Below are positions 2,331-44,367 of a DNA stretch of 64,000 nt, in pieces. This DNA comes from Rhodopirellula sp. SM50 (GTDB taxonomy: Bacteria; Planctomycetota; Planctomycetia; Pirellulales; Pirellulaceae), in the NCBI RefSeq assembly GCF_002289565.1, contig NZ_NTFY01000078.1:1-64000 (forward strand), read 5' to 3'. Position 1 is the first letter of the stretch; every line of letters begins with the position of its first letter. The notes under the pieces are model-generated. The model saw nothing but the letters and a program-made list of their open reading frames with translations, was not told where the DNA came from and searched no databases. The translations under genes were made by a program, and so were the position numbers.

Positions 2331-2376
2331 ATCGTTCTGCCCTCATCGTTCTGCCACCCCATTATTCTGCCACCCT
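2331..2376. repeat. CATCRTTCTGCC repeat array (short)
   Basis: Three spaced copies of a CAT(C/T)(G/A)TTCTGCC word occur here. This is the same dispersed family that precedes several other genes in the window, here in the opposite orientation to most. It overlaps the last codons of the VanZ-like gene, so that protein's C-terminal tail (about the last ten residues) is encoded by the repeat. Confidence 0.6.
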
Positions 2377-3698
2377 CGCTCCGCCCCCACCGTCTCCAAC
2401 CCGAACACAAATTGATACGCCAACCAACCGACCGTCGCTCCACTCAAGTAAAGCAAAACGTCTGACGCATCGGCGATGTGCGGCTTCAGATACACCTGCA
2501 TCACTTCAATGAACGTGGCGGTGACCACGACGGCCATAGCAACCCAGACAATCGCGATCGCCCGCCGAATCCCTGCCAATTTCGACACACCGACCGCGAA
2601 ACAGAACCCGACGATCGCGAACAGCCCCAGTTTTAAGACCACATTGGATCCCGCTTCGAATTCCGAGGTGAAGTAATACTTCGCCAACGGCCAGTCCCAA
2701 AAATGCTCCCACGCCGTCTGGACCGCCTCGGCCGACTCCACCCAGCCGGTCGAACGCCCGAGTGTTCCCGCCGTGATCAATGCGAGCGCCAAGCCGCCTG
2801 ATGCAATCCAAAACGAAGCACGCGTCAAGAGTTTCATCCTTCCGAGCACCTGCGCACCAAAAATTCCGACCGGGACGCCCGCGGTCGCCGCAATCACATC
2901 CCAGATCGAAACGAATCGCGTAAACACCGGGATCTGCAGCAGTTCATTGGTCAGGGCAAACGCGATCGTCCCCCAAGCTGCCGTTCTTGCCCCACAGCAC
3001 ACAGTAAGCATTGCCGCCAGGATCGCCCCGCGGACAAGTGAAAGAAACAGAACTTTCAGCAAGTCGGGTGAGTCCAATCCGTTGAGCGTCGGCAACAAGA
3101 TGATCTTACCCGCGCGATACTTTGCGACGTAATCAGAGGGCTGCAGCATCAAATCCAGCGGCATCACCGCATACGCCAGATTCAAAAACACAAACACGAC
3201 GATCGTCCAGCGAAGTTTCTGGGAGGACTCCGCATCACGCAATTGGAACACCGCCTTCGCAAACGAACGTCCCAGAACCAGGTAGAGGATCGGTCCCAAC
3301 AACGCGCCGACACAGCCGGCGACGAGGTCGTTCAACGATTGCGTGCGAATCGGAAAGAACGCCTGGCAATATTCAATCCCCACTGCGACCGCACAGCACA
3401 CGCCCACGACGAGCGGCGAGAAAAGTACCAGCGGCCAGCGGGTCGATCGTCCCCAATCGATCGCCGCCGACATCAGGAAACTGGGCAACAGGATGATCAA
3501 TCCGTTCGCCACCCAGTCGGCACGTCGATAGATTCCCAAATGAAACCAAGGTAGCGACTTGAACGCGGCCGTTGCCTCCGCCCAACTTGTCGGCACGTAT
3601 CGCATCGGCAAGAACGATCCGTAGATCGCCAACGACAGCGTGGCGATCGCCAAGAACCCCAGCATGCGGCGCCGGCGGCGGTCGGACTCACTCACCAT
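2343..3698 (-). CDS. Membrane protein with three VanZ-like motifs
   Basis: This is a 451-residue polytopic membrane protein. The N-terminus has YGSFLP at 26-31, as in VanZ proteins. The family motif E..Q.....R..S..D.....G...G can be seen three times: at 109-135 (EYCQAFFPIRTQSLNDLVAG), at 252-278 (ELLQIPVFTRFVSIWDVI) and, more diverged, at 398-424 (EVMQ...DASDVLLYL). A usual VanZ domain is 130-160 residues, so this looks like tandem copies. The ATG at 3698 overlaps the end of the upstream lipoprotein gene by 11 nt, which suggests translational coupling. VanZ proteins occur in glycopeptide resistance and in many envelope loci; the substrate is unknown. Confidence 0.65.
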   Translation of the reverse strand: MVSESDRRRRRMLGFLAIATLSLAIYGSFLPMRYVPTSWAEATAAFKSLPWFHLGIYRRADWVANGLIILLPSFLMSAAIDWGRSTRWPLVLFSPLVVGVCCAVAVGIEYCQAFFPIRTQSLNDLVAGCVGALLGPILYLVLGRSFAKAVFQLRDAESSQKLRWTIVVFVFLNLAYAVMPLDLMLQPSDYVAKYRAGKIILLPTLNGLDSPDLLKVLFLSLVRGAILAAMLTVCCGARTAAWGTIAFALTNELLQIPVFTRFVSIWDVIAATAGVPVGIFGAQVLGRMKLLTRASFWIASGGLALALITAGTLGRSTGWVESAEAVQTAWEHFWDWPLAKYYFTSEFEAGSNVVLKLGLFAIVGFCFAVGVSKLAGIRRAIAIVWVAMAVVVTATFIEVMQVYLKPHIADASDVLLYLSGATVGWLAYQFVFGLETVGAERGWQNNGVAER

Positions 3699-6690: not shown

Positions 6691-8847
6691 CTACCCTCCC
6701 TGGATGAACTTCACCCGTTTGGTCCAGGTCAGTGGATCGAGCCAGGTTTGGATCTTGGGCAGTGGGTAGTGCTCCAGGAACCAGATTGCGGTGCGGCGAC
6801 GGCGCGATCGATAGGCCCGTCCGTCGGGAAGCGATGCCGTTCTCATCAGCCGGTACAGCCTGCGGCGCCGGACCGCGTCGAGCGAAACCCCGGTCGTCTC
6901 CTTGATCCACCCTTCAGGCAAAGCGAGGCCAACCAGCTCGTCGGCCAATGCAAGCACGTTTCCAACGGTTCGCGTGAGCCCGTGATGCTTGCTCCGTTCG
7001 GAAAGCTCCCGCCAATCAAACGGCTTTCCATCCTCTGGCGATTCGACCAGGTAACGCAAGTCCCACAGGTCGCGACACGCGCGACGATACTCACCGGTAT
7101 GCCCAAGGTTGACCGCCGAGTGAATGATCCGATCGACCGGGTCGAGCCAAGAAAAGGGAGTTCCGCCAATCGGAACAGCCCGCTCGATCATTTCGTCGAC
7201 GGGAAACGAATAGGGATCGCCGATCGGTAGCAGTCGAAAATGCAAATCGATTTCGATGCGACGATACACGTGACGGCGTGGGGCTAACTCGTGCAGCCAG
7301 CGCCGGTAATACTGTTCGTCTCGGTCGCTGTTGTCTTCCATCGGTGCGAAATCGTTTTTGCGAAGCGAATCGTCGACGGCATCCAAGTGCTTGGGATGGA
7401 CCAGCAAATCGATATCGCTGGTCGTACGCCCGGCAGCCCAGTCGCATTTTGCCGCCAGGTAGGCGCTTCCCTTCAACAAAACCAGGGGGACGTTCAACGG
7501 TGCTAGAACTCGAGCGATCGCGTCGGTTTCATATTCGATGCTGCGATGATTGAATCGGGTCAGCCAATTCTGACGATCGATTCTGCGTCGCACCTGAATC
7601 GGCAATCGTGCGAAGTCATCACGTTTCTCAAGATCAACGGCTATTTGGGACAGCAATGCCGTGTGATTGGCAAACCGAATCACGCGATCCCATGTCGCAA
7701 GGTCCCAATCAAAGCACACGCTCGAGTCTTCGCGAAGCTGATTGACCAGCCCCAGGACCTCGATAGGACTTCGTTCGGTGACCAGCACCCGCGTGTTGAT
7801 GTCAGCAGGAAATGCGGTCGACGATGCCCCGTGTCCCGCCGCACCGGCAGCCTTTCGTTCCCGCGATTTCGGTTCCGCTTCATGTGAACAGAGCTCGGTC
7901 GACAATCTCTCCGGTCTCGGCGCGGATTGGACATTCAAGAGCTCATGCCCTCGCAGGAACTGTTCCGCTTCGGTAGCATCGTGGTACTTCAGCCGGAATC
8001 CCGGCGTCTGACGGGCAAGTTGGATCACTTCGTCGAACCCCCTGCGCCCCATCATGCGAAAATTGATTCCCAGCTGCGTCAATTTGATAAAGACTTCGTC
8101 GACCGGCATCCGTTCCAGTTTGCAGCCGATCGATGCATCGTCGCAGCGATCCGGCAAGACAATCGCTCCCAGCGGAAAGGTCTGTCCCGCAATCGCAACC
8201 GATTCTTCGGTCGGCCGGAGATGGGCGATGCTGCTGGGTGGATCGAGAATCTTTGCCGTCGGGCCGAACACGGCCCGCTCTCCAAATCGGGACCGGATCA
8301 AATCCAAGGACCGACCTTTCAAAATGGTTGGCCGGCCGAGTGCGTGGACGTGATGATCGTCCATATCCAACAATGCGGTCTCGTCACTGAGCAGTTTCCA
8401 CCCGGACAACATCAAAGTCGAAGCGAGCGTGCTTTTACCAGCCCCCGAATCGCCCGGAAAAATGACGACCTGATTGGAGCCCGGAAGTACAGCTGCCGCG
8501 GCGTGAATGGCCAGTTGCTGGTAGGACTGGCGAAAGAAGCACCAACTGGTAATCCATTCCATCGCGGCGACGGACAGACGCATCGGCCAGGTCTGCCAGA
8601 TCACACCGTCAATACTGCAGATGATTGCGCGATGGAGTCTTTCACGGCCGGCTTGAAAATCGAGCGTGAAATCCGGCAGGGCCACCGGATCGCGGAGTTC
8701 GCGGTGGGCTTGAATCGTGTGAACCGCATCCGCAATGACAGGGATATCACTGCGAACACGAAACTCATAGGGTCCGAAGCGAAACCCAAGGCCGCGTTGT
8801 AGCAGACGATCCGCGATGTCCGGCGCCGTGACTTCCTTGATCAACAA
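6691..8847 (-). CDS. HprK-like kinase fused to a nucleotidyltransferase (HPr-rel-A type)
   Basis: This 718-residue protein has two recognisable halves. Residues 1-300 are an HPr-kinase-related ATPase: Walker A GDSGAGKST at 132-140, preceded by HAAAA (115-119) and followed by LLSDETALL (152-160), as in the HprK-related kinase A family. Residues about 380-700 are a nucleotidyltransferase of the NTP_transf_5 type (PF14907), with LLKGSAYL (457-464), the DxD-bearing TTSDIDLLV (475-483) and a third acidic site in EIDLH (532-536). A low-complexity linker (about 305-350) joins them. These two activities are usually separate genes. It starts at TTG (8847), 103 nt after the PqqD-like gene. In lasso-peptide clusters the homologues phosphorylate or otherwise modify the C-terminal serine of a precursor; here the substrate may be the peptide encoded at 9258-9461. 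Confidence 0.75.
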   Translation of the reverse strand: MLIKEVTAPDIADRLLQRGLGFRFGPYEFRVRSDIPVIADAVHTIQAHRELRDPVALPDFTLDFQAGRERLHRAIICSIDGVIWQTWPMRLSVAAMEWITSWCFFRQSYQQLAIHAAAAVLPGSNQVVIFPGDSGAGKSTLASTLMLSGWKLLSDETALLDMDDHHVHALGRPTILKGRSLDLIRSRFGERAVFGPTAKILDPPSSIAHLRPTEESVAIAGQTFPLGAIVLPDRCDDASIGCKLERMPVDEVFIKLTQLGINFRMMGRRGFDEVIQLARQTPGFRLKYHDATEAEQFLRGHELLNVQSAPRPERLSTELCSHEAEPKSRERKAAGAAGHGASSTAFPADINTRVLVTERSPIEVLGLVNQLREDSSVCFDWDLATWDRVIRFANHTALLSQIAVDLEKRDDFARLPIQVRRRIDRQNWLTRFNHRSIEYETDAIARVLAPLNVPLVLLKGSAYLAAKCDWAAGRTTSDIDLLVHPKHLDAVDDSLRKNDFAPMEDNSDRDEQYYRRWLHELAPRRHVYRRIEIDLHFRLLPIGDPYSFPVDEMIERAVPIGGTPFSWLDPVDRIIHSAVNLGHTGEYRRACRDLWDLRYLVESPEDGKPFDWRELSERSKHHGLTRTVGNVLALADELVGLALPEGWIKETTGVSLDAVRRRRLYRLMRTASLPDGRAYRSRRRRTAIWFLEHYPLPKIQTWLDPLTWTKRVKFIQGG

Positions 8848-8950
8848 TGGTCAGCCTCAGGACGAGCAATCAAAAGAAAAAGCGTGGCGCAGAGCCTAGC
8901 TGGTGAGCGAGTTTGCGACAAACAAGCTTAGGCCGTACTGCAGACGCTTG

Positions 8951-9247
8951 CTACACACCAGACGCATCAATGAAACGCACCAATCCTAGCATTTCCATTT
9001 GCCGCAAGCATTCGCCGCAGTAATCGGCCAGCTTGTGGGGGTCGGCATTTTCCGACTGGGAGATGATTGATTGCACAATCGCCGATTCAGAAGTCGGGCC
9101 GTCGCATCTCCGCAGAAAGTCGAACACCGCCATGTCTAAGCGGCCGAAAACGGCGGTGTCCCAGTAGTGGGCGTTGAAAACAGCCCAGGACGAGCCGGAA
9201 AGCGGCTCGACCGTCGCGTCATCGCCAAGAACGATCCGACGCTCCAT
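8951..9247 (-). CDS. PqqD-like protein of the HPr-rel-A type
   Basis: From the ATG at 9247 this is a 98-residue protein with the build of the PqqD/RRE peptide-binding family: a beta-rich first half (LSGSSWAVFNAHYWDTAVF) and a helical second half (AVFDFLRRCDGP through CLRQMEMLGLV). PqqD relatives hold a leader peptide so that a partner enzyme can modify it, and one subfamily occurs next to HprK-related kinases. It begins 10 nt after the stop codon of the 67-residue peptide gene and is followed by the kinase/nucleotidyltransferase. A GTG at 9316 would extend it into the peptide gene and is less likely. Confidence 0.65.
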   Translation of the reverse strand: MERRIVLGDDATVEPLSGSSWAVFNAHYWDTAVFGRLDMAVFDFLRRCDGPTSESAIVQSIISQSENADPHKLADYCGECLRQMEMLGLVRFIDASGV

Positions 9248-9257
9248 CAAAGATACT

Positions 9258-9461
9258 TCAGGAACCCGTCGAGGTGGCTGAAGCGCTACCGTTGGTCGCT
9301 CGCGCCGTTTGCGCACTGCTGGCGATGATCGCGGGTGTCGCGATCGCGGCGGTAATCAGCAAGCGACGACTTTGGTTGCCGCTGCGCGCGACTGCCTTCG
9401 GTTGCTCGTTGTCTCGATCGAATTCGTTTTCGTTCACAGGTTGGTTTGACTCAAATTCCAT
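9258..9461 (-). CDS. Small peptide, candidate substrate of the PqqD/kinase unit
   Basis: The product is 67 residues. Residues 1-30 are hydrophilic and acidic (EFESNQPVNENEFDRDNEQP), like a leader. Next comes SRRLLITAA and a hydrophobic run (about 33-50) ending in ASSAQTARA, which looks like a twin-arginine or Sec export signal. The last dozen residues are small and polar (TNGSASATSTGS) and end in serine. The start at 9461 is supported by a GAGGAG Shine-Dalgarno nine bases upstream. It is first in a unit with the PqqD-like and kinase/nucleotidyltransferase genes. A role as precursor peptide is inference from that position and the C-terminal Ser; it could instead be a small exported or membrane protein. 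I recognise no family. Confidence 0.55.
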   Translation of the reverse strand: MEFESNQPVNENEFDRDNEQPKAVARSGNQSRRLLITAAIATPAIIASSAQTARATNGSASATSTGS

Positions 9462-9470
9462 TGTTGCTTG

Positions 9471-9476
9471 CTCCTC
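9471..9476 (-). promoter_or_regulatory. Ribosome binding site GAGGAG for the small peptide
   Basis: On the minus strand GAGGAG sits nine bases before the ATG at 9461. Clear Shine-Dalgarno sequences are uncommon in this window, so this one fixes the start of the 67-residue peptide and argues that it is translated. Confidence 0.6.
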
Positions 9477-9699
9477 GTGATGGAGTTCATTGAACTGCGC
9501 CTTTGAAAACAAATGCGCGGTCGGTTCATCCTCCCCACTCCCTAGATTAACTGCGTTTTTCGCCGAGAATACCCGCAATAACCGGGTTTTGACCAAATTT
9601 CGTCAGAATCACATCGACGCGCCCAAACTTTGAATACGATTCGATCGTCCGTTTGCAGGCGGTACTCCAGAGGGGTGATACAGAAGCATGATTTTTTGA

Positions 9700-10412
9700 C
9701 GGTATCTGGGGGTGTTGAAACTCTCTACTAGCTTCGCGACGGCTGAGTGTGATCGTAGTCGAAGCCGCCAGCCCCACCCCAGACGTGAGGTGTACCCATA
9801 TCTCCCGAACTCAATCCGCCTGCGGGGGACGTCAATTGTATTACTGAGCGTTTGCGTTTCTAGTGAAACGCCACACCGCAGAGCGGTGCCACAACACAGC
9901 CCGGGGTCGCGGAGCGCACCCCGGGTTGTGTCGAAATCGGAACTGGAACCCCAGCGGGGTTCAACAATCGACAGGTTGCGATCCTGGGGGGGCAAACTGC
10001 ACAAATCTGGCAAAACGCCTTGTTCAACCCCGCTGGGGTTGGCGGCCTAATGGTGGCCGGAACTTGGGGTGCGCTAACGCGACCCCAAGCTTTGATGTGG
10101 CACGCCGCTGGCGTGAAACCGCTGCCGCGGTGGAACGATAAATGCGTCAGGAATACAATTGATGTCCCGGGCAGGCCTTACCCCGCAAGGGGTAGAATCA
10201 AGTAGCCGGTGGTCGCCTTAGCGCACCACCGGAATCCCGAAAGCGATTGCGGTTTGCCCCCGGACGGGGTCACAGCGTCCAGACGCTGCGACCCACTTGG
10301 GGGTCGTGTTGTCCTGTTTTTTACCGTTCCGGCGGTGTTCGCTTCGCTCGCTCTGCCGGCTACTCTCTGCCATCCCATCCGGGATGCAAGCAAGTGGGTG
10401 AACCTAAGCCCC
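9700..10412. repeat. Intergenic repeat island
   Basis: About 700 bases with no believable gene, made of short GC-rich words that occur in pairs or as inverted repeats. Examples are ccccagcggggttcaac (9951) with its near reverse complement ttcaaccccgctggggtt (10022), aacacagcccggggtcg (9894) with caccccgggttgtgt (9919), ggtggtcgcc.. with ..gcgcaccaccgg (10208-10231), and gaccccaagc with gcttggggt-like words. Open frames here are spurious. It separates the peptide-modification unit from the GT4 gene. Bases 9477-9699 also hold nothing I can name. Confidence 0.55.
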
Positions 10413-11765
10413 TCACGATTCCACGGCCACCGGATTCTCAATCCACTCAAGCAACCGCTGCGCCTTCGCCTGCCACGATTCCGCTTCCAGCCGTTGGCTC
10501 AGTTCGTGGCCCCGTTCAGCGTCACCGCTTTCGTCGCCCCCGCCAGACAATTTCTCATGCACCATGCGTACGAACTCCTCCGCGTCACCGGCCACCTGTA
10601 AGAACGCCTTCCAGTCTTCCGTCGCCGGCAGCGGTGAAACCACGACCGGTTTGCCGGTGGCCAGGTATTCCTTCAGTTTCAGCGGCTGCATCGCCCGCGT
10701 GACCGGCAAATCCGCATAAGGCATGATTAGCACCTCGGCCCCCCGAGCCAGCTGGGGTAGCTCTTCAAACGGCAGCGAACCGGGCAATTCGATTCGGGTG
10801 TGCCCCAGCAGCCTTGGGTCGGGATCCTGCTGGGGACCGGCAAGGATGATCTTGCCCGCGTCCAACGAATCCGCCAACGCCAACACCCATTCCGCATTCA
10901 TCCGCCGATCCACTACGCCCCAGAAGAGGACGAGAGGGGGAGAGGGGGAGAGGGGGAGAGAGGGAGAGGAGGAACAGGAAGAGGAGCTTGTGGATTGCGA
11001 ATGGGTACTCCAGAAGCCGAGGTCGACGCCGTGGGTCAGTAGTTCGGCGTGGCAGTTCCGGCTGGCGAGGCTGTCGACCAGGTGGTCGCTGACGGCGATG
11101 GTGCGGTCGACCTTGGCGATTAGTTCGTCTTCCAGCCGGCCGAGTGTCTTGCCGTCTAGTCCCGGCCACACCGAAAAGTCATCGACGCAGTAATAGATCC
11201 ACGACTTCACCGGCAGCTTGCCGACCAAATCCGCCACGATCGGGATCGTCGTGATCGCCACCGCACCATCGGCCGCATCACGCAACTGCTTGGCCAACAA
11301 GTTTCGATTCAACCACCGATCCCAACGCCGCGACATCCACGGCCACATCTTCGCATCGATAATTTTGGGAGAGGAGGGAGGTGGGAGGAGGGAGGAGGGA
11401 GTGGCGGGGGGAGTTCCCAAAACCTGTGGATCGCTACAGCCAACCTGGGACGCGGGACTAGGCACTTGAACTTCGGATTCAACAACTTGGAAGTTGGAAC
11501 TTGAAACTTGAAACTCCCCCTCCCGTCGCTCGCGACGCATCCATCCGGCGACCTTTTCGAACCCTCGCCGCGCGGTGATCAAGTCCAATCGTGGCGGCCG
11601 CATCCCGATCGTGTTGACCCAAGTCACCTCATGTTCGGGCAGCAATTGCCGAATCAAGTGCTGGCAGCTCGACGGATGCCGCCCCCAATCGTCAGAAAAT
11701 ACGAGGAATTTCAAAGCATGTAGGGCATGCTGTGCATGCCGGTGCGGTTGTAGATGATGCGACAA
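10413..11765 (-). CDS. GT4-family glycosyltransferase with low-complexity inserts
   Basis: The ORF is 450 residues. The first strand LKFLVFSDDWG begins at residue 18, so a TTG at 11714 may be the true start; the TTG at 11765 would translate the palindromic repeat at 11719-11742. The C-terminal half has the GT-B donor-site pattern (VLFWGVVDRRMN, KIILAGPQQDPD, EVLIMPYADLPVTRAMQPLK, LKEYLATGKPVVVSPLP). Two stretches are unlike the family: about 80-130 (FQVSSSNFQVVESEVQV, then PSSLLPPPSSP) and about 245-275 (STSSSSCSSSPSLPLSPSPP). Both come from tandem-repeat DNA. Without them the length would be normal. Expected to be cytosolic, transferring sugar to a lipid-linked glycan. Confidence 0.7.
   Translation of the reverse strand: MSHHLQPHRHAQHALHALKFLVFSDDWGRHPSSCQHLIRQLLPEHEVTWVNTIGMRPPRLDLITARRGFEKVAGWMRRERREGEFQVSSSNFQVVESEVQVPSPASQVGCSDPQVLGTPPATPSSLLPPPSSPKIIDAKMWPWMSRRWDRWLNRNLLAKQLRDAADGAVAITTIPIVADLVGKLPVKSWIYYCVDDFSVWPGLDGKTLGRLEDELIAKVDRTIAVSDHLVDSLASRNCHAELLTHGVDLGFWSTHSQSTSSSSCSSSPSLPLSPSPPLVLFWGVVDRRMNAEWVLALADSLDAGKIILAGPQQDPDPRLLGHTRIELPGSLPFEELPQLARGAEVLIMPYADLPVTRAMQPLKLKEYLATGKPVVVSPLPATEDWKAFLQVAGDAEEFVRMVHEKLSGGGDESGDAERGHELSQRLEAESWQAKAQRLLEWIENPVAVES
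10921..10990. repeat. Purine tandem repeat (gagagggg) inside a GT4 gene
   Basis: A run of gagaggggga units on the plus strand, i.e. polypyrimidine on the coding strand. It encodes the serine/proline-rich insert in the glycosyltransferase. The reading frame is kept open. Confidence 0.7.
11360..11520. repeat. Purine-rich and 'acttggaa' repeats inside a GT4 gene
   Basis: The first part (11360-11410) is a ggaggaggga-type purine run; the second (about 11466-11515) contains repeated words such as acttggaagttggaacttga and acttgaaactc. Together they encode the FQVSSSNFQVVESEVQV and PSSLLPPPSSP segments of the glycosyltransferase. Confidence 0.6.
11719..11742. repeat. Palindromic element tgtagggcatgctgtgcatg (copy 1)
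   Basis: GGCATGCTGTGCATGCC is an imperfect palindrome. The same words recur at 51911-51932. It overlaps the 5' end of the GT4 frame. Confidence 0.55.
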
Positions 11766-14951: not shown

Positions 14952-17213
14952 TCAACCGAACAGCAGCCATGCGAAGATCGCTGCCATACTACCGATCCCC
15001 ACCACACCACCGGCAACCACCAACATTTTGAATCGTTTGATCGCAATGGCTCGCTGTGGCACAAACGTCCGGGGCTCGCCAAAATCATCTTCGATCTCTT
15101 CAGTAAACGCGGGAGCGTCACGATGTTCCACCAGCCATTCTCGTTGCCAACCGAAATTCAGCATCAAAATGACGGGGCGACACAGCGACTTCGTCGGTGA
15201 CTGGGTCAGATAGTCAACGACATAGTTGAAGAAGAAATCCGCCTTGGCACACATCCTTGCCCGGATGACTTCGTCGCACTCATAGCGGGCAGCATGTTCC
15301 AAGACATGCCATTTACGCATGTCCTGTGCAGACCAGGTTTCCGTAGGGTATTGCAACTTGTCCGGCTCCGACAGCGTGGGACGCTCATTTTCTGTCATCC
15401 AACGAGCGTAGTGCCGCAGACACGCAACACCGTAGCGAAAATCGCTATCAAGTTCGTCAAGATTCAGCTTGTAATCAACATACCGTCCCAGTGCCTGCAG
15501 ATACATCGTGTAGAACCAACGAAGCTCCGCATTGAGTAGGTCGAGTCGCGGCAAATCTTGTTTTGGATGGACCGTGCGTCGCATCAGCAGCGATGCGCGA
15601 TCCAAGTACTTTCGGTCGCCCGTGATTTCGTGGCCCGTCAACAATGCGTGCGTGGAATTTGCGGCTGCACGTCCTGGTCCATAGTAATCTTCACTGCTGT
15701 AAGTCGAATACCCGGTATCGGCACGGGAGAGCCATCGAAAGGGCGTCTTGCCTCCATCATCGATCCGCATGACATAGTCGGCACCATTGATCGCAGCGTT
15801 CTTGTAGCGTTCTTTGCCGGTCAACCAATAGGCAACCATCCAGCCGGTGTTGTAGTTGTGGGCTGCGGCGGGACCACCGCCGATCTGATAAACCTTGGCA
15901 AGCGTATCACCGGTTTGCCCCAGCTCAGACAAGTCCGTTCCACCTTGCATGCCCTCTGAAATACGCAGGTTTTTCGGATAGCTTCGATGCGTGGACGTGT
16001 GAGCATCCGCATAGTGGTACGTGTGCCAGAAGAGTCCGCCGTTATAGACCAATTTGTCTTGGTCGGTGTGGTAGGTGTCGATATCCCAGGCGTGATCAGC
16101 CATTGGGATCATCAACTCAAGCCAGCGTTTGTCTCCCGTGCGAAGATATTGGATTCCAAAACCAAGAGTGCAGTCGTACTGGTTGTTATAGTGTGAAATA
16201 AGCGGCGAATCGCCTTTGTGAAACACGGCTTCGTGGTCGCCCCAAACATCTCCGAAATTTCGCCATCCGTACTCGTCGACCTTTTCACGCTTGGTAAAAA
16301 AAGAATCATCGCCTTCGATTGCCTGATTAACGAGCGCCTCGTATCGTTTGTCGCTGGCGTCTGATCGCGGGGTCAAGTAAGGCCATGAAACCGAATCCGT
16401 TGACGCGCAACTCGCTGCATCAGCAGCATCGGATTCGACAAACTTCCGAAGTTTCGATTGAGCCGTCTCTGAACCATACGCCACGGCAAACTCGAACGTT
16501 TTCTGCTCTCCCCCTTGCAGTTCCTCTCCGCCGGTAGGTCGTCGAGGAAACAAACCGAGCCTCAGCCCTTCGGAATCTGCGAACATAGATGACGGAAAGT
16601 TCTGCCAAAAGTATCGGCACCCAATCGACAGACTTTTATCACCGAAATTTGCATTCAACACAGGTACGGCACGCAACCCGTCAAAACTCTGGCCATCCGC
16701 TTCAACATGATAGCCACGGAACGACAATGGAACGTTGCCGGAGCGGTCCACATGGACGCGACTATCCCAGTTTTGTCCGCCACTGGATGCTTGCAAAAGC
16801 TGAATGCTCCGTGTCGAGACTACCGATCGATCGCAATCAAGCAGATCAAGCGAAAGCGAGTCGACCTGACCCTGCGACTTTGGCTGGAAAGCAACCGAAA
16901 GTTCATCGACAACGACGTTTCCCTCTGCCCCCAAATCCCAGTTCCCGCCTGCATGACTCATCGCTAGCGGATTGCGTATGGTGAACTCAAAAGAACAGAA
17001 ATGACCATCCTCGATGAACGCAGCAGAAAGTAGCCCGACTAGCGGAGAACGTTTTGCCCCATTCGCGAATACGAGTTTCGCTGGGAACGCCCGCTCTCCA
17101 CACTCGGGAAAGTTTGGCAAGTACAAAGTTGAAGTTTGGTACTGAATGCCGTCGTGCTCGAGAACAACCTTGAAAACAATGCAATTCTGGACACCAACTT
17201 CTTCACCTGACAT
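14952..17213 (-). CDS. PcRGLX/YetA-like (exo-rhamnogalacturonan-lyase-like) tail-anchored protein
   Basis: From the ATG at 17213 the product is 753 residues. The N-terminal third is beta-rich and holds YFWQNFPSSM and ELQGGEQKT, words I associate with the PcRGLX/YetA family (exo-rhamnogalacturonan lyases). The middle and C-terminal parts are rich in aromatic helices (NNQYDCTLGFGIQYLRTGDKRWLELM, AAHNYNTGWMVAYWLTGKERY), as in an alpha/alpha toroid. There is no signal peptide. The last 30 residues hold a single hydrophobic helix (MLVVAGGVVGIGSMAAIFAW), so the protein looks tail-anchored, with the catalytic part probably cytoplasmic. It may trim or edit a uronic-acid-containing glycan. The family call is from memory of motifs. 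Confidence 0.55.
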   Translation of the reverse strand: MSGEEVGVQNCIVFKVVLEHDGIQYQTSTLYLPNFPECGERAFPAKLVFANGAKRSPLVGLLSAAFIEDGHFCSFEFTIRNPLAMSHAGGNWDLGAEGNVVVDELSVAFQPKSQGQVDSLSLDLLDCDRSVVSTRSIQLLQASSGGQNWDSRVHVDRSGNVPLSFRGYHVEADGQSFDGLRAVPVLNANFGDKSLSIGCRYFWQNFPSSMFADSEGLRLGLFPRRPTGGEELQGGEQKTFEFAVAYGSETAQSKLRKFVESDAADAASCASTDSVSWPYLTPRSDASDKRYEALVNQAIEGDDSFFTKREKVDEYGWRNFGDVWGDHEAVFHKGDSPLISHYNNQYDCTLGFGIQYLRTGDKRWLELMIPMADHAWDIDTYHTDQDKLVYNGGLFWHTYHYADAHTSTHRSYPKNLRISEGMQGGTDLSELGQTGDTLAKVYQIGGGPAAAHNYNTGWMVAYWLTGKERYKNAAINGADYVMRIDDGGKTPFRWLSRADTGYSTYSSEDYYGPGRAAANSTHALLTGHEITGDRKYLDRASLLMRRTVHPKQDLPRLDLLNAELRWFYTMYLQALGRYVDYKLNLDELDSDFRYGVACLRHYARWMTENERPTLSEPDKLQYPTETWSAQDMRKWHVLEHAARYECDEVIRARMCAKADFFFNYVVDYLTQSPTKSLCRPVILMLNFGWQREWLVEHRDAPAFTEEIEDDFGEPRTFVPQRAIAIKRFKMLVVAGGVVGIGSMAAIFAWLLFG

Positions 17214-17514
17214 AAAATTCACTTGACATTGAAAGAGACACTTTGCGCAGGTTATCTACCCACGTTAACTCTGCCGGTGAGATGCTGCTTCACATGTGAT
17301 GTTGGCGCGGTCGGTCGGAAATTGCTACCGCGGACTCGTGCACGATCTGCGTACTCCGTCGTTGCCCGTCAATATTTTCCGTCAACAAAGATTTCGAGCG
17401 GAGCACGCGAGACATTAGGCAGTGAATCGCAAGTGAAGCAGCGATTTCCAAATCCGACTATCGACTATTCGCACCGATTCTAGATGGCTAAACACTCCCA
17501 ATGCCCTCGCAAGA

Positions 17515-42181: not shown

Positions 42182-43372
42182 TTATACAGGCTGACTTATC
42201 GTGCATGCCAACTGGCACCAAGCAACTCCCCGTGAATTACCTCCATGAACTTCCATTCGATGGCCGTTAATCCATAAGGCCAGAATTGTACCGTGCGAGT
42301 CGGTTAGGCCAACGGAAACAGTGTAACTCCCAGGTTTCAGTGGGATCCCTTGTATTTCCATCTCCAGCTCATTCGTTCCAGGGCAAATCACACTATCAAA
42401 ATCGTCTGAGTTCAAGACGCATGAGGCGAGATACTGATCCGAGAGGTCGCGGACATTTATGGTCAACCGAAAGTTTTGCACGTGTTTTGCAGAGACGATT
42501 CTAATCACTCCAGCTACGCGTTCCGTGAAGTGAACTCGAGACGGTAACTCAACAAACTCTATTGATTCTACTGGATAGACGCACTCGACATGACCTAGAA
42601 CTTTTGCATCAGTCCCCATGTTCGCGTCGTTATATGCTTCGACGCCAAGCGTCGCATCGCCATCCCACTGAACCTCACCACGGGACAAAAAAAGCACTCG
42701 ATCACTAATGCGCGCTACGCTGGGCATGTCGTGCGACACGAAAACAACCGCGGATTCTTTTCGAAGCTCGTCAACTCGCCGGTAGCATTTTGTCCGGAAC
42801 GCAACATCTCCAACGGCTAGAACTTCGTCAAGCAAAAGGATATCCGGCGTTACTAAATTGACGGCAGTCGAGAAGCCGAGTCGCACTTGCATTCCCGAAC
42901 TGTAAGTTCTTACAGGCGAATCGATGAACTCGCTGATTTCAGAGAATTCAACAATCCGCTCGAAGCGATCTCTAATTTGACGTCTTGAAAGACCGAGGAT
43001 TGAACCATTTACATAGACATTTTCCCTCCCAGTCAAGACTGGGTCAAATCCTGCCCCCAGCGCAATCAATGCCGCAACTCTTCCTCGCATCCGTATTCGG
43101 CCGGTGTCAGGCTTGACCAGCCCATTCAACATTTTCAGCAGCGTCGTCTTGCCCGCACCGTTACGTCCAATGAGCCCCAGGCACTCGCCACGTTTTATCT
43201 CGAAATCAATTCCTTGGTTTGCCCAGAATTCACCGTCCCGAAGAGTTGCTGACGACTCGTTGCTTCTGGCCAAATCAGCGAACGAATCTTTCACGCCATA
43301 CCAAAGACTTTTTTTCAAGTCTCGGCAAAACTTCTTGCCAACATTTTCGGACGATACTAATACTTCGGGCAT
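42182..43372 (-). CDS. wzt: O-antigen ABC exporter ATP-binding protein with C-terminal sugar-binding domain
   Basis: The 396-residue product has a complete ABC domain: Walker A GLIGRNGAGKTTLLKML, signature YSSGMQVRLGFSTAV, Walker B PDILLLDEVLAVGD and the H-loop VSHDMPSVARI. Residues about 255-396 form an added beta-rich domain (VESIEFVELPSRVHF through SYTVSVGLTDSHGTILALW), as in Wzt proteins, which reads the modified end of the polymer. It pairs with the permease encoded 95 nt upstream. It would export a lipid-linked glycan across the inner membrane. Confidence 0.9.
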   Translation of the reverse strand: MPEVLVSSENVGKKFCRDLKKSLWYGVKDSFADLARSNESSATLRDGEFWANQGIDFEIKRGECLGLIGRNGAGKTTLLKMLNGLVKPDTGRIRMRGRVAALIALGAGFDPVLTGRENVYVNGSILGLSRRQIRDRFERIVEFSEISEFIDSPVRTYSSGMQVRLGFSTAVNLVTPDILLLDEVLAVGDVAFRTKCYRRVDELRKESAVVFVSHDMPSVARISDRVLFLSRGEVQWDGDATLGVEAYNDANMGTDAKVLGHVECVYPVESIEFVELPSRVHFTERVAGVIRIVSAKHVQNFRLTINVRDLSDQYLASCVLNSDDFDSVICPGTNELEMEIQGIPLKPGSYTVSVGLTDSHGTILALWINGHRMEVHGGNSRGVAWCQLACTISQPV

Positions 43373-43467
43373 CGATTAATAAACGTAAGATTAGACATGA
43401 GAGTTTTCTGGAATCGAGCGAGTGCCGTGCAAGCTGTTTTAAAGCTCTTGATAGTGGGTGTGTTTCG

Positions 43468-44367
43468 CTACATCCCCATACGAGCAACTAAATGCGGCAT
43501 CACCACGCGAAGTGCCAGCATCATGACAAAAATTGCGAAAAGAGAAACTGGAATCAAGAAAAGAATCGATCCGATTTGTTCAAGCGATCCGGTAGTCAAC
43601 ATATCGCGCCCACCCATTAAGATCGGCGTAAGTGGGTTCCAGGATACAACCGTCGCAGCCAACCCCGCTTCCGGCGGTGGATATACCACCGGTGCCATGT
43701 ACATCAAAAATCCCATCAGAATTGGAATTGCTTGTTGGATGTCTGAGTAGAGGCTTCCCAATGGCACTAGCAGCAACCCTAATGCCGTGCCAAGTGCGAA
43801 CATGGCCAGGATCACAACTGGAATAAATAGGATCGTCCATGGCGGAATCACTTTAAACAGAAAGAACGCCGGGATCAGCACAATTGTGTAGATCAAAAAT
43901 TCAAACACCACGCGAGCAGTGCCGGCAGCGACAAAGGCCTCCGGCGGCACTTTTAATTTCATAAATACTGGCTTTCCTGAATTAAATGCCTGCAGAGGAC
44001 TCTGTAGCAACTTGGCAAACGTCTGCCAAATGACGCTACCGATGATCACGAACAACGGATACGGCATGCCAGTATCGCTTATCGCTATTACTTTCTGACT
44101 GTTCAGAAACAGCCATACACCGGTGGTCATGACCGGTGGCAGCAACAGCCAAACGTAACCCAGGTAACTTTGTCGAAACTGAGCTTTAAGGTCACGTTGA
44201 AAGAGGATCCAAATCAGCTCCCGGCATTTCCAAAGATCGCTGAACACCTCGCGGATCAACTTGCCCGGGTTCGCCAGCGGCGACTCGGGGGAGTAGATCA
44301 CTTCGGGTAAGCCTTGGGAGACTTCGTCAGGAGTCATTTCGGCGGGAATTTCGGCCGTAAGCGACAT
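43468..44367 (-). CDS. wzm: O-antigen ABC exporter permease
   Basis: The 299-residue membrane protein shows the ABC-2 pattern of Wzm/TagG permeases: an amphipathic N-terminus with ELIWILFQRDLKAQFRQSYLGYVWLLLPP, about six membrane helices, and YPLFVIIGSVIWQTFAKLLQSPLQ and FLMYMAPVVYPPPEAGLAATVVSWNPLTPIL in the central part. It lies upstream of the ATPase gene. A 93-nt gap follows rfbA; I see no promoter I would defend there. Confidence 0.88.
   Translation of the reverse strand: MSLTAEIPAEMTPDEVSQGLPEVIYSPESPLANPGKLIREVFSDLWKCRELIWILFQRDLKAQFRQSYLGYVWLLLPPVMTTGVWLFLNSQKVIAISDTGMPYPLFVIIGSVIWQTFAKLLQSPLQAFNSGKPVFMKLKVPPEAFVAAGTARVVFEFLIYTIVLIPAFFLFKVIPPWTILFIPVVILAMFALGTALGLLLVPLGSLYSDIQQAIPILMGFLMYMAPVVYPPPEAGLAATVVSWNPLTPILMGGRDMLTTGSLEQIGSILFLIPVSLFAIFVMMLALRVVMPHLVARMGM

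Follow-up and report, generated by a model that had tools for sequence, protein, structure and literature searches.

On the minus strand of a 64,000-nucleotide stretch of contig NZ_NTFY01000078.1 from Rhodopirellula sp. SM50 (the window, from here on), we found a module made of a small precursor-like peptide, a PqqD-like protein with the predicted fold of a recognition element (RRE) for ribosomally synthesized and post-translationally modified peptides (RiPPs), and an apparent HprK-like kinase fused to a PF14907 nucleotidyltransferase (NTase). We consider it reasonably probable that the module carries out a linear, non-lasso peptide modification comparable to that of the linear polyphosphorylated peptides (LPP) described in Bacillota (Popov et al. 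2026, PMC13381572), and that the leader of its precursor is a twin-arginine signal peptide. To judge by the sequences, the adaptor probably grips the peptide and the kinase-transferase modifies it.

The genes follow one another in the order peptide, PqqD-like gene and fused kinase-NTase gene, and the same trio is present in two congeners of the window species, with identities to them of 75% each for the peptide, 50% for the PqqD-like protein and 65-69% for the fused enzyme. The peptide is a coding gene under purifying selection: the ratio of nonsynonymous to synonymous substitution rates (dN/dS) among the three congeneric species is 0.15-0.27 for the whole peptide and 0.14-0.18 for its leader. 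The leader is held by selection while the tail varies, evolving faster than the leader (dN/dS of 0.45 and 0.22 in two species pairs, the third being saturated). The Shine-Dalgarno sequence has equivalents in the congeners (GAGGAG and GCGGAG). NCBIfam gave no family above cut-off for the window peptide or for nine other peptides. A preliminary description of the window had read here a 67-residue peptide with a Shine-Dalgarno sequence, an acidic leader, a hydrophobic segment and a tail ending in Ser, followed by a PqqD-like gene and an HprK-like/PF14907 fusion; coordinates and translation bear out the peptide, and the NCBIfam and Pfam scores given below agree with the identities and order of the genes.

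The peptide and the enzyme genes stay together across Planctomycetota. Each of the 17 planctomycete genomes in which a relative of the fused gene was found (counted at E≤1e-25, the searches scoring just the best few candidates per genome) has an adjoining PqqD-like gene and a small peptide with an arginine-pair (RR) leader, the very neighbourhood on which the preliminary description had staked the link between kinase and peptide. These 17 are made up of 10 of the 199 genomes of a family sample and 7 more among the 10 found in a class sample of 397; such relatives are rare, also within the genus (3 of 14 genomes). A profile of the three congener peptides, run against the 199 family genomes, gave eight matches with E of at most 1e-5, including its own three rows, and all eight lie a few hundred bases from a fused kinase gene that had been found separately. 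In two further family genomes the kinase and the NTase are encoded by two genes rather than one, preceded by a PqqD-like gene and an RR peptide. The class-wide search added seven genomes, one of which (G386) is a locus read earlier (L085), leaving six new ones. The leader profile, frozen beforehand, matched a peptide in all six (E 4e-7 to 4e-3; three of the genomes belong to one genus and two to another), and in each of them the PqqD-like gene sits between peptide and kinase.

Three simpler ways of finding the peptides were abandoned. The three-row peptide profile, used for the search of the family genomes, produced many chance matches above E 1e-3 and missed two peptides that were identified by eye, in G440 and G486, and a crude hydrophobicity scan overlooked peptides read by eye, for instance in L006 and L009. 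An enrichment test with a simple RR...P regular expression gave matches in 32 of 2785 short control open reading frames (ORFs) vs 56 of 2455 near kinases, a background so high that the leader profile was used in its place.

The kinase family TIGR04352 was matched in 60 of 392 genomes of the phylum (E≤1e-8). Larger stretches were fetched for 24 of the 59 genomes other than that of the window, and 11 of these 24 loci contain an RR peptide (9 by profile and 2 by pattern, leaving a doubtful case, L094, uncounted). Kinase, NTase and peptide are also co-located on alpha- and gammaproteobacterial plasmids. Among the 12 of 20 plasmid records from tblastn that were read (Vibrio, Sphingomonas, Methylobacterium, Parasedimentitalea, Methylosinus, three from Sinorhizobium, Ensifer, two from Rhizobium, and Leisingera), the RR peptide adjoins the kinase in 11, ten by profile and that of Sphingomonas by eye; beside the Methylosinus kinase no RR peptide was found. 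A separate PqqD-like match occurs in plasmid locus L088 and a match inside the kinase frame in L113, L114 and L117, the other plasmid loci showing neither, so the plasmid sets are related to the window module and not identical with it. Counting all 45 loci with a local kinase hit, the leader profile matched within 3 kb at E≤0.01 in 30 (29 if L094, a doubtful 290-aa ORF, is excluded), of which 14 are seeds of the profile; the 45 contain near-duplicates (among them L080/L081, L077/L078, L092/L118, L114/L117, L113/L116 and the three congeners), and L099, one of the 46 loci given, had no kinase hit and falls outside the count. In a 400-kb control drawn from 20 places across the phylum, none of 2999 ORFs reached E≤0.01, and the three best (E 0.018-0.022) were matched at the Tat-signal-like start of ORFs of 438-444 aa, Tat being the twin-arginine translocation pathway.

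Some of these loci depart from the common arrangement. Two differing RR peptides stand in tandem by one kinase in L106 (3836-4436) and L109 (863-1330), as in multi-precursor RiPP clusters. In the Sinorhizobium loci L092 and L118 the peptide follows the NTase instead of preceding the kinase, whose frame is N-terminally extended. In L107 (6088-6621) the peptide next to an HprK-like gene joins an RR leader to a Lys/Ser repeat tail.

The peptide could instead be an exported small protein that has no more than the operon in common with the kinase-NTase, which would act on a glycan, a lipid carrier or an exopolysaccharide enzyme. Such a reading would sit well with the glycan genes flanking the module, with the 12 of 45 kinase loci that show no peptide and with the inconstant place of the peptide, which follows the NTase in S. 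meliloti and Ensifer and in Rhizobium lies upstream, in a changed order. It is harder to reconcile with the unbroken linkage in Planctomycetota, with the RRE, an element known for binding leader peptides, and with the tandem peptides of L106 and L109. Moreover, the module occurs on Vibrio and Sphingomonas plasmids among other neighbours (fatty-acid/phosphonate genes; phosphate-uptake and glmU/glmS genes), and we regard operon sharing as quite unlikely.

The leaders of 28 peptides, which are related and not independent rows and whose boundary after the small-x-small (AxA) end was placed by eye, follow a common plan: a mostly acidic n-region, a twin-arginine motif, a hydrophobic core bearing a Pro, and the AxA end. 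Many carry a motif of the [ST]RRxFLK kind. The window peptide has SRRLLI at residues 31-36, a hydrophobic core containing IATPAI, and TARA at the end, which together are features of a Tat substrate, and its genome encodes TatC. A loose hxxPxh pattern (h, hydrophobic) is present in the leader core of 27 of the 28 peptides, L088 matching in the c-region only, and the exact [YW]xxPx[LVIFAM] lies inside the core of nine. An RR followed, in uncharged sequence, by that exact motif was found in 14 of 2671 module ORFs, including the nine precursors just named, vs 4 of 2999 control ORFs. The motif [Y/W]xxPx[L/V/I/A/F/Y] is reported to be recognised by most discrete lasso RREs, and lasso and LPP RREs to bind the aromatic-xxP kind of motif (PMC13381572).

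As a whole, the leader looks like a twin-arginine export signal and not like the leader of a lasso peptide. The hydrophobic segment that had been described as Tat- or Sec-like is the conserved heart of this leader and not an incidental feature, although Pfam's TAT_signal does not recognise it. It is also conceivable that the modification is the same and the leader is no export signal, the arginine pair and the core being the surface to which the RRE binds and the product being released otherwise (by an ABC exporter or by lysis) or retained in the membrane. The unmatched TAT_signal, the O-antigen type ATP-binding cassette (ABC) exporter in the window, and the dedicated SipW-like peptidase and MsbA-like transporter that LPP are reported to use (PMC13381572) would fit a leader of that sort. 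The many leaders with an [ST]RRxFLK-like motif, a hydrophobic core and AxA speak against it, as do the best control matches of the leader profile, which are Tat-like starts of large ORFs, and the Pfam scan of 40 window ORFs (shorter ones left out), which showed no SipW-like or MsbA-like gene; we think it unlikely.

After the AxA end the tails are hydrophilic and rich in Gly, Ser and Pro, and in all but two of the 28 peptides they are 7 to 54 aa long. A Ser occurs within six residues after AxA in 24 of 28 peptides, compared with a mean of 16.5 for shuffled tails (p 0.0006; with the four window sizes tried, 3, 5, 6 and 7 residues, p was 0.19, 0.0014, 0.0006 and 0.0046). The last residue is Ser in the window peptide and in both congeners; over the 28 peptides it is Ser in just seven, the others ending in P, N, D, T, A, K, G, I, Y or R. 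The tail is the proposed modified part of the peptide. On the Vibrio alfacsensis plasmid (L087, 5863-6687) an RR leader is followed by a tail of 212 aa with several Cys near its start, and the module may therefore modify larger exported proteins as well.

These tails also bear on a tailoring of the paeninodin type, in which the last Ser of a lasso-like precursor would be the site on which kinase and NTase act. An RRE, an HprK-like kinase and a PF14907 NTase are all present, the same three protein families are found in paeninodin and pseudomycoidin clusters (PMC9266682), and the three congeneric peptides do end in Ser. With so few other peptides sharing this residue, a conserved C-terminal Ser as modification site was discarded. 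The genome has no protein above cut-off for the lasso B2 protease family PF13471, its single match scoring 23.3 bits against a cut-off of 26 in an 853-aa frame. The 40 scanned ORFs contain neither an asparagine-synthetase-like cyclase nor a lasso-B2 domain, the search for the cyclase family PF00733 having been confined to the window. Lasso membership was rejected on the unconserved Ser and the lack of a B2 protease above cut-off: this is not a lasso system, since the defining features that were tested are not there, and we take paeninodin-type tailoring to be very improbable. The preliminary description, which spoke of a lasso-type module without lasso enzymes, was right about the peptide/RRE/kinase/NTase set and in seeing no protease or cyclase, as far as the 40 window ORFs scanned show; its lasso-type mechanism and its paeninodin-like modification of a conserved terminal Ser do not survive, and an LPP-like scheme acting on a Ser shortly behind the leader suits the peptides better.

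The second gene product has, by profile and model, a PqqD/RRE fold. It matches NCBIfam PqqD_rel_X (TIGR04353) with E 1.8e-4 and 22.4 bits, under the cut-off of 35, and the profile of its family matches the lasso adaptor TbiB1 at 2e-6 over the length of the adaptor (the alignment used, A6, leaves out the Vibrio row). An AlphaFold2 (AF2) model built from two sequences (pLDDT 76) resembles PqqD (5sxy) and leader-bound TbiB1 (5v1u/5v1v) with TM scores of 0.67-0.74 and Foldseek E values of 0.004-0.005, none under 0.001. Several designed helical proteins outrank TbiB1 in the profile search through short helical stretches, and two bacterial methyltransferases are among the first five in the structure search; the PqqD and TbiB1 matches were accepted because they span the whole domain.

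The third gene, from its sequence, is an HprK-like kinase fused to a PF14907 nucleotidyltransferase with the catalytic residues kept. The fused protein scores 168.2 bits with HprK_rel_A (TIGR04352), under the cut-off of 200, and 139.5 bits with NTP_transf_5 (PF14907), for which the cut-off is 31.2. Relatives in L006, L007 and L008 pass the TIGR04352 cut-off and that of L084 passes TIGR04353; the window's kinase and PqqD-like protein, scoring below, are thus divergent. His115, Gly137, Lys138, Thr140, Asp155 and Asn262 (window numbering) are invariant in 18 kinase sequences, and Asp155 is followed by Glu in most of them and by Asp in two. Lasso kinases are reported in a review to have a His-Lys-Asp-Asp motif (PMC9266682). 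The best match of the kinase family profile among solved structures is HPr kinase 1ko7 (2.5e-7, around the P-loop). In 17 NTase sequences a Lys-Gly, an Arg and a DxD are invariant; the search of this domain against solved structures gave no useful match (best E 0.51), and the AF2 model of the fused protein was uninformative (pLDDT 35).

From the signal-like leader, the TatC of the genome and the lack of a dedicated peptidase in the ORFs scanned, we infer a sequence of RRE binding, phosphorylation, NTase transfer and export. The PqqD-like RRE would bind the leader at its hydrophobic hxxPxh core, hiding that core from the export machinery. The kinase half would then phosphorylate, perhaps polyphosphorylate, a Ser (perhaps Thr) just past the AxA site, and the PF14907 half would attach a nucleotide or sugar to that phosphate. 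On release by the RRE, the peptide would leave through Tat (or Sec) and signal peptidase would free a short modified tail, which in the window would serve the surrounding polysaccharide locus. Several steps have counterparts in LPP, where the RRE is reported to bind the leader, LppK to phosphorylate Ser3 of the core and a SipW-like signal peptidase to cleave the leader off (PMC13381572). In its widest form, as a widespread class whose RiPP leader is a twin-arginine signal, with an RRE that gatekeeps export until the kinase-NTase tags the residue adjoining the cleavage site, and an exported phospho- or phosphosugar peptide that primes or anchors surface polysaccharide, we regard the idea as tentative and rather unlikely.

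Several points weigh against this proposal. What the sequences show is the linkage of the genes, the plan of the leader, the RRE fold, the conserved catalytic residues, selection on the peptide and a TatC in the genome; binding, modification and export are proposed from these. When each clade was left out of the leader profile in turn, only 6 of 14 seeds kept E≤0.01; five more fell to E 0.012-0.073, no better than the best control matches, and three alphaproteobacterial seeds were lost. There is no profile match at E≤0.01 in 15 of the 45 kinase loci, of which L088, L096 and L107 have an RR peptide by eye or by regular expression and the remaining 12 none. Pfam TAT_signal matched one of the 11 peptides scanned (L114, E 0.57, below cut-off) and not that of the window. 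The window core IATPAI keeps the Pro and the hydrophobic positions and not the aromatic residue of YxxP, and 4 of the 28 peptides have no Ser among the first six tail residues. Sphingomonas and Vibrio tails reach 104 and 212 aa, so the putative substrate of the module is not always a short peptide. As to the chemistry, LppK is described as inactive when Thr replaces Ser3, and the LPP products of Bacillota as unchanged after deletion of the NTP (nucleoside triphosphate) transferase (PMC13381572), which makes the NTase transfer the weakest part of the proposal.

The window is a polysaccharide locus with a Wzy protein, many glycosyltransferases, sugar-nucleotide enzymes and an O-antigen type ABC pair (Table 1). 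Of the neighbours of the module, the TuaH-like glycosyltransferase has a tblastn relative in L002, L076, L077, L078 and L082 and the VanZ-family protein in L068, L076, L077, L078 and L082, each being absent from the other 8 loci compared; L076, L077, L078 and L082 have both, and L083-L086 neither. A weak GH127-like protein within the glycan locus (14952-17222, minus strand) has a 63%-identical relative near the module of L076. The suggested tie to glycan assembly fits the window, where the module adjoins glycan genes, and is not universal, given the different neighbours on the Vibrio and Sphingomonas plasmids. Upstream of the peptide, positions 9462-9720 align among the three congeners with 87% mean column identity, and a part of this region is far more conserved than the synonymous sites of the peptide. 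That part is single copy in the genome, has no match in Rfam, and is a probable regulatory region, possibly a promoter or a leader RNA.

Table 1. Features of the module and its surroundings in the window
Feature	Position	Strand	Basis
Precursor-like peptide, 67 aa, ATG start, last residue Ser	9258..9461	-	Translation, relatives, dN/dS
Shine-Dalgarno GAGGAG, 9 nt before peptide ATG	9471..9476	-	Sequence reading
Leader, residues 1-55 of peptide	9297..9461	-	41 of 55 columns invariant in three congeners; same plan in other peptides
Tail, residues 56-67 (TNGSASATSTGS), Gly/Ser/Thr-rich, variable, first Ser at +4	9261..9296	-	Boundary by eye after AxA
PqqD-like protein, candidate RRE adaptor, 98 aa	8951..9247	-	NCBIfam, profile, AF2 model
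Fused kinase-NTase gene, TTG start, 718 aa	6691..8847	-	Translation, domain matches, relatives
HprK-like kinase half, residues about 1-300 of fused protein	7948..8847	-	TIGR04352, 1ko7 match, invariant residues
PF14907 nucleotidyltransferase domain, residues 384-640 of fused protein	6928..7698	-	139.5 bits, invariant residues
Conserved stretch upstream of peptide, about 165 nt	9517..9680	-	Congener alignment
TuaH-like glycosyltransferase, upstream neighbour	10413..11765	-	Domain scan; tblastn
VanZ-family membrane protein, downstream neighbour	2343..3698	-	Domain scan; tblastn
O-antigen type ABC exporter	42182-44367		Domain scan of window ORFs

The closest known system to the window module is LPP. 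Both have a discrete RRE, an HprK-like kinase and an NTP transferase and lack a lasso cyclase (here within the ORFs scanned), both have a conserved N-terminal leader, a variable C-terminus and a Ser soon after the leader, and the capsule-locus setting is also shared, the non-lasso RRE/HprK/NTP-transferase clusters of Bacillota being reported in capsule loci (PMC13381572). The LPP leader motif is YxxPxVLxHQxIxFETxxS, whereas the window peptide has IATPAIIASSAQ, a putative twin-arginine signal, and the aromatic-xxPx[h] core is found in only 9 of 28 of its relatives; as the LPP leader motif is not there, we have not filed the module as a member of LPP. It differs further in the fusion of kinase and NTase in the window lineage, in the lack of a SipW-like LppS or MsbA-like exporter among the window ORFs scanned, to which that search was limited, and in its occurrence in Planctomycetota and Pseudomonadota, LPP being called Bacillota-restricted in the discussion of PMC13381572. 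The new class of peptide proposed earlier may be new in its leader, but is not new in being a non-lasso cluster of RRE, HprK and NTP transferase, such clusters having been published in 2026 (PMC13381572).

The kinase and PqqD-like gene also match the HPr-rel-A system of NCBIfam (TIGR04352 HprK_rel_A and TIGR04353 PqqD_rel_X), and NTase genes are annotated beside such genes on the Vibrio and Sphingomonas plasmids, although the window proteins remain under both curated cut-offs (168.2 of 200 and 22.4 of 35 bits). The module peptide is hypothetical or unlisted in the plasmid annotation tables. Our literature search found no paper naming HPr-rel-A, HprK-related kinase, TIGR04352 or TIGR04353 and, in titles and abstract starts, no twin-arginine leaders beside an RRE/HprK set. 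With paeninodin and pseudomycoidin (PadeK, PsmK and PsmN) the module shares the kinase and nucleotidyltransferase families and the RRE, and it differs from them in that the C-terminal Ser is not conserved, that no B2 protease passes the cut-off and that the ORFs scanned contain no cyclase.

The Tat proofreading chaperones TorD and DmsD are cytoplasmic proteins that keep hold of a twin-arginine leader while the cargo is being completed; the fold of these chaperones is unrelated, and the holder here would be an RRE. What may be new is a leader serving both as RRE target and as export signal, together with a candidate substrate for HPr-rel-A, which thereby gains a concrete one seen in Planctomycetota, Alphaproteobacteria and Vibrio. 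If this is true, the newly described linear phosphopeptides extend beyond Bacillota. It would also suggest that an adaptor for peptide modification can occupy an export signal and so couple modification to secretion, the product being a peptide tagged inside the cell and then exported.

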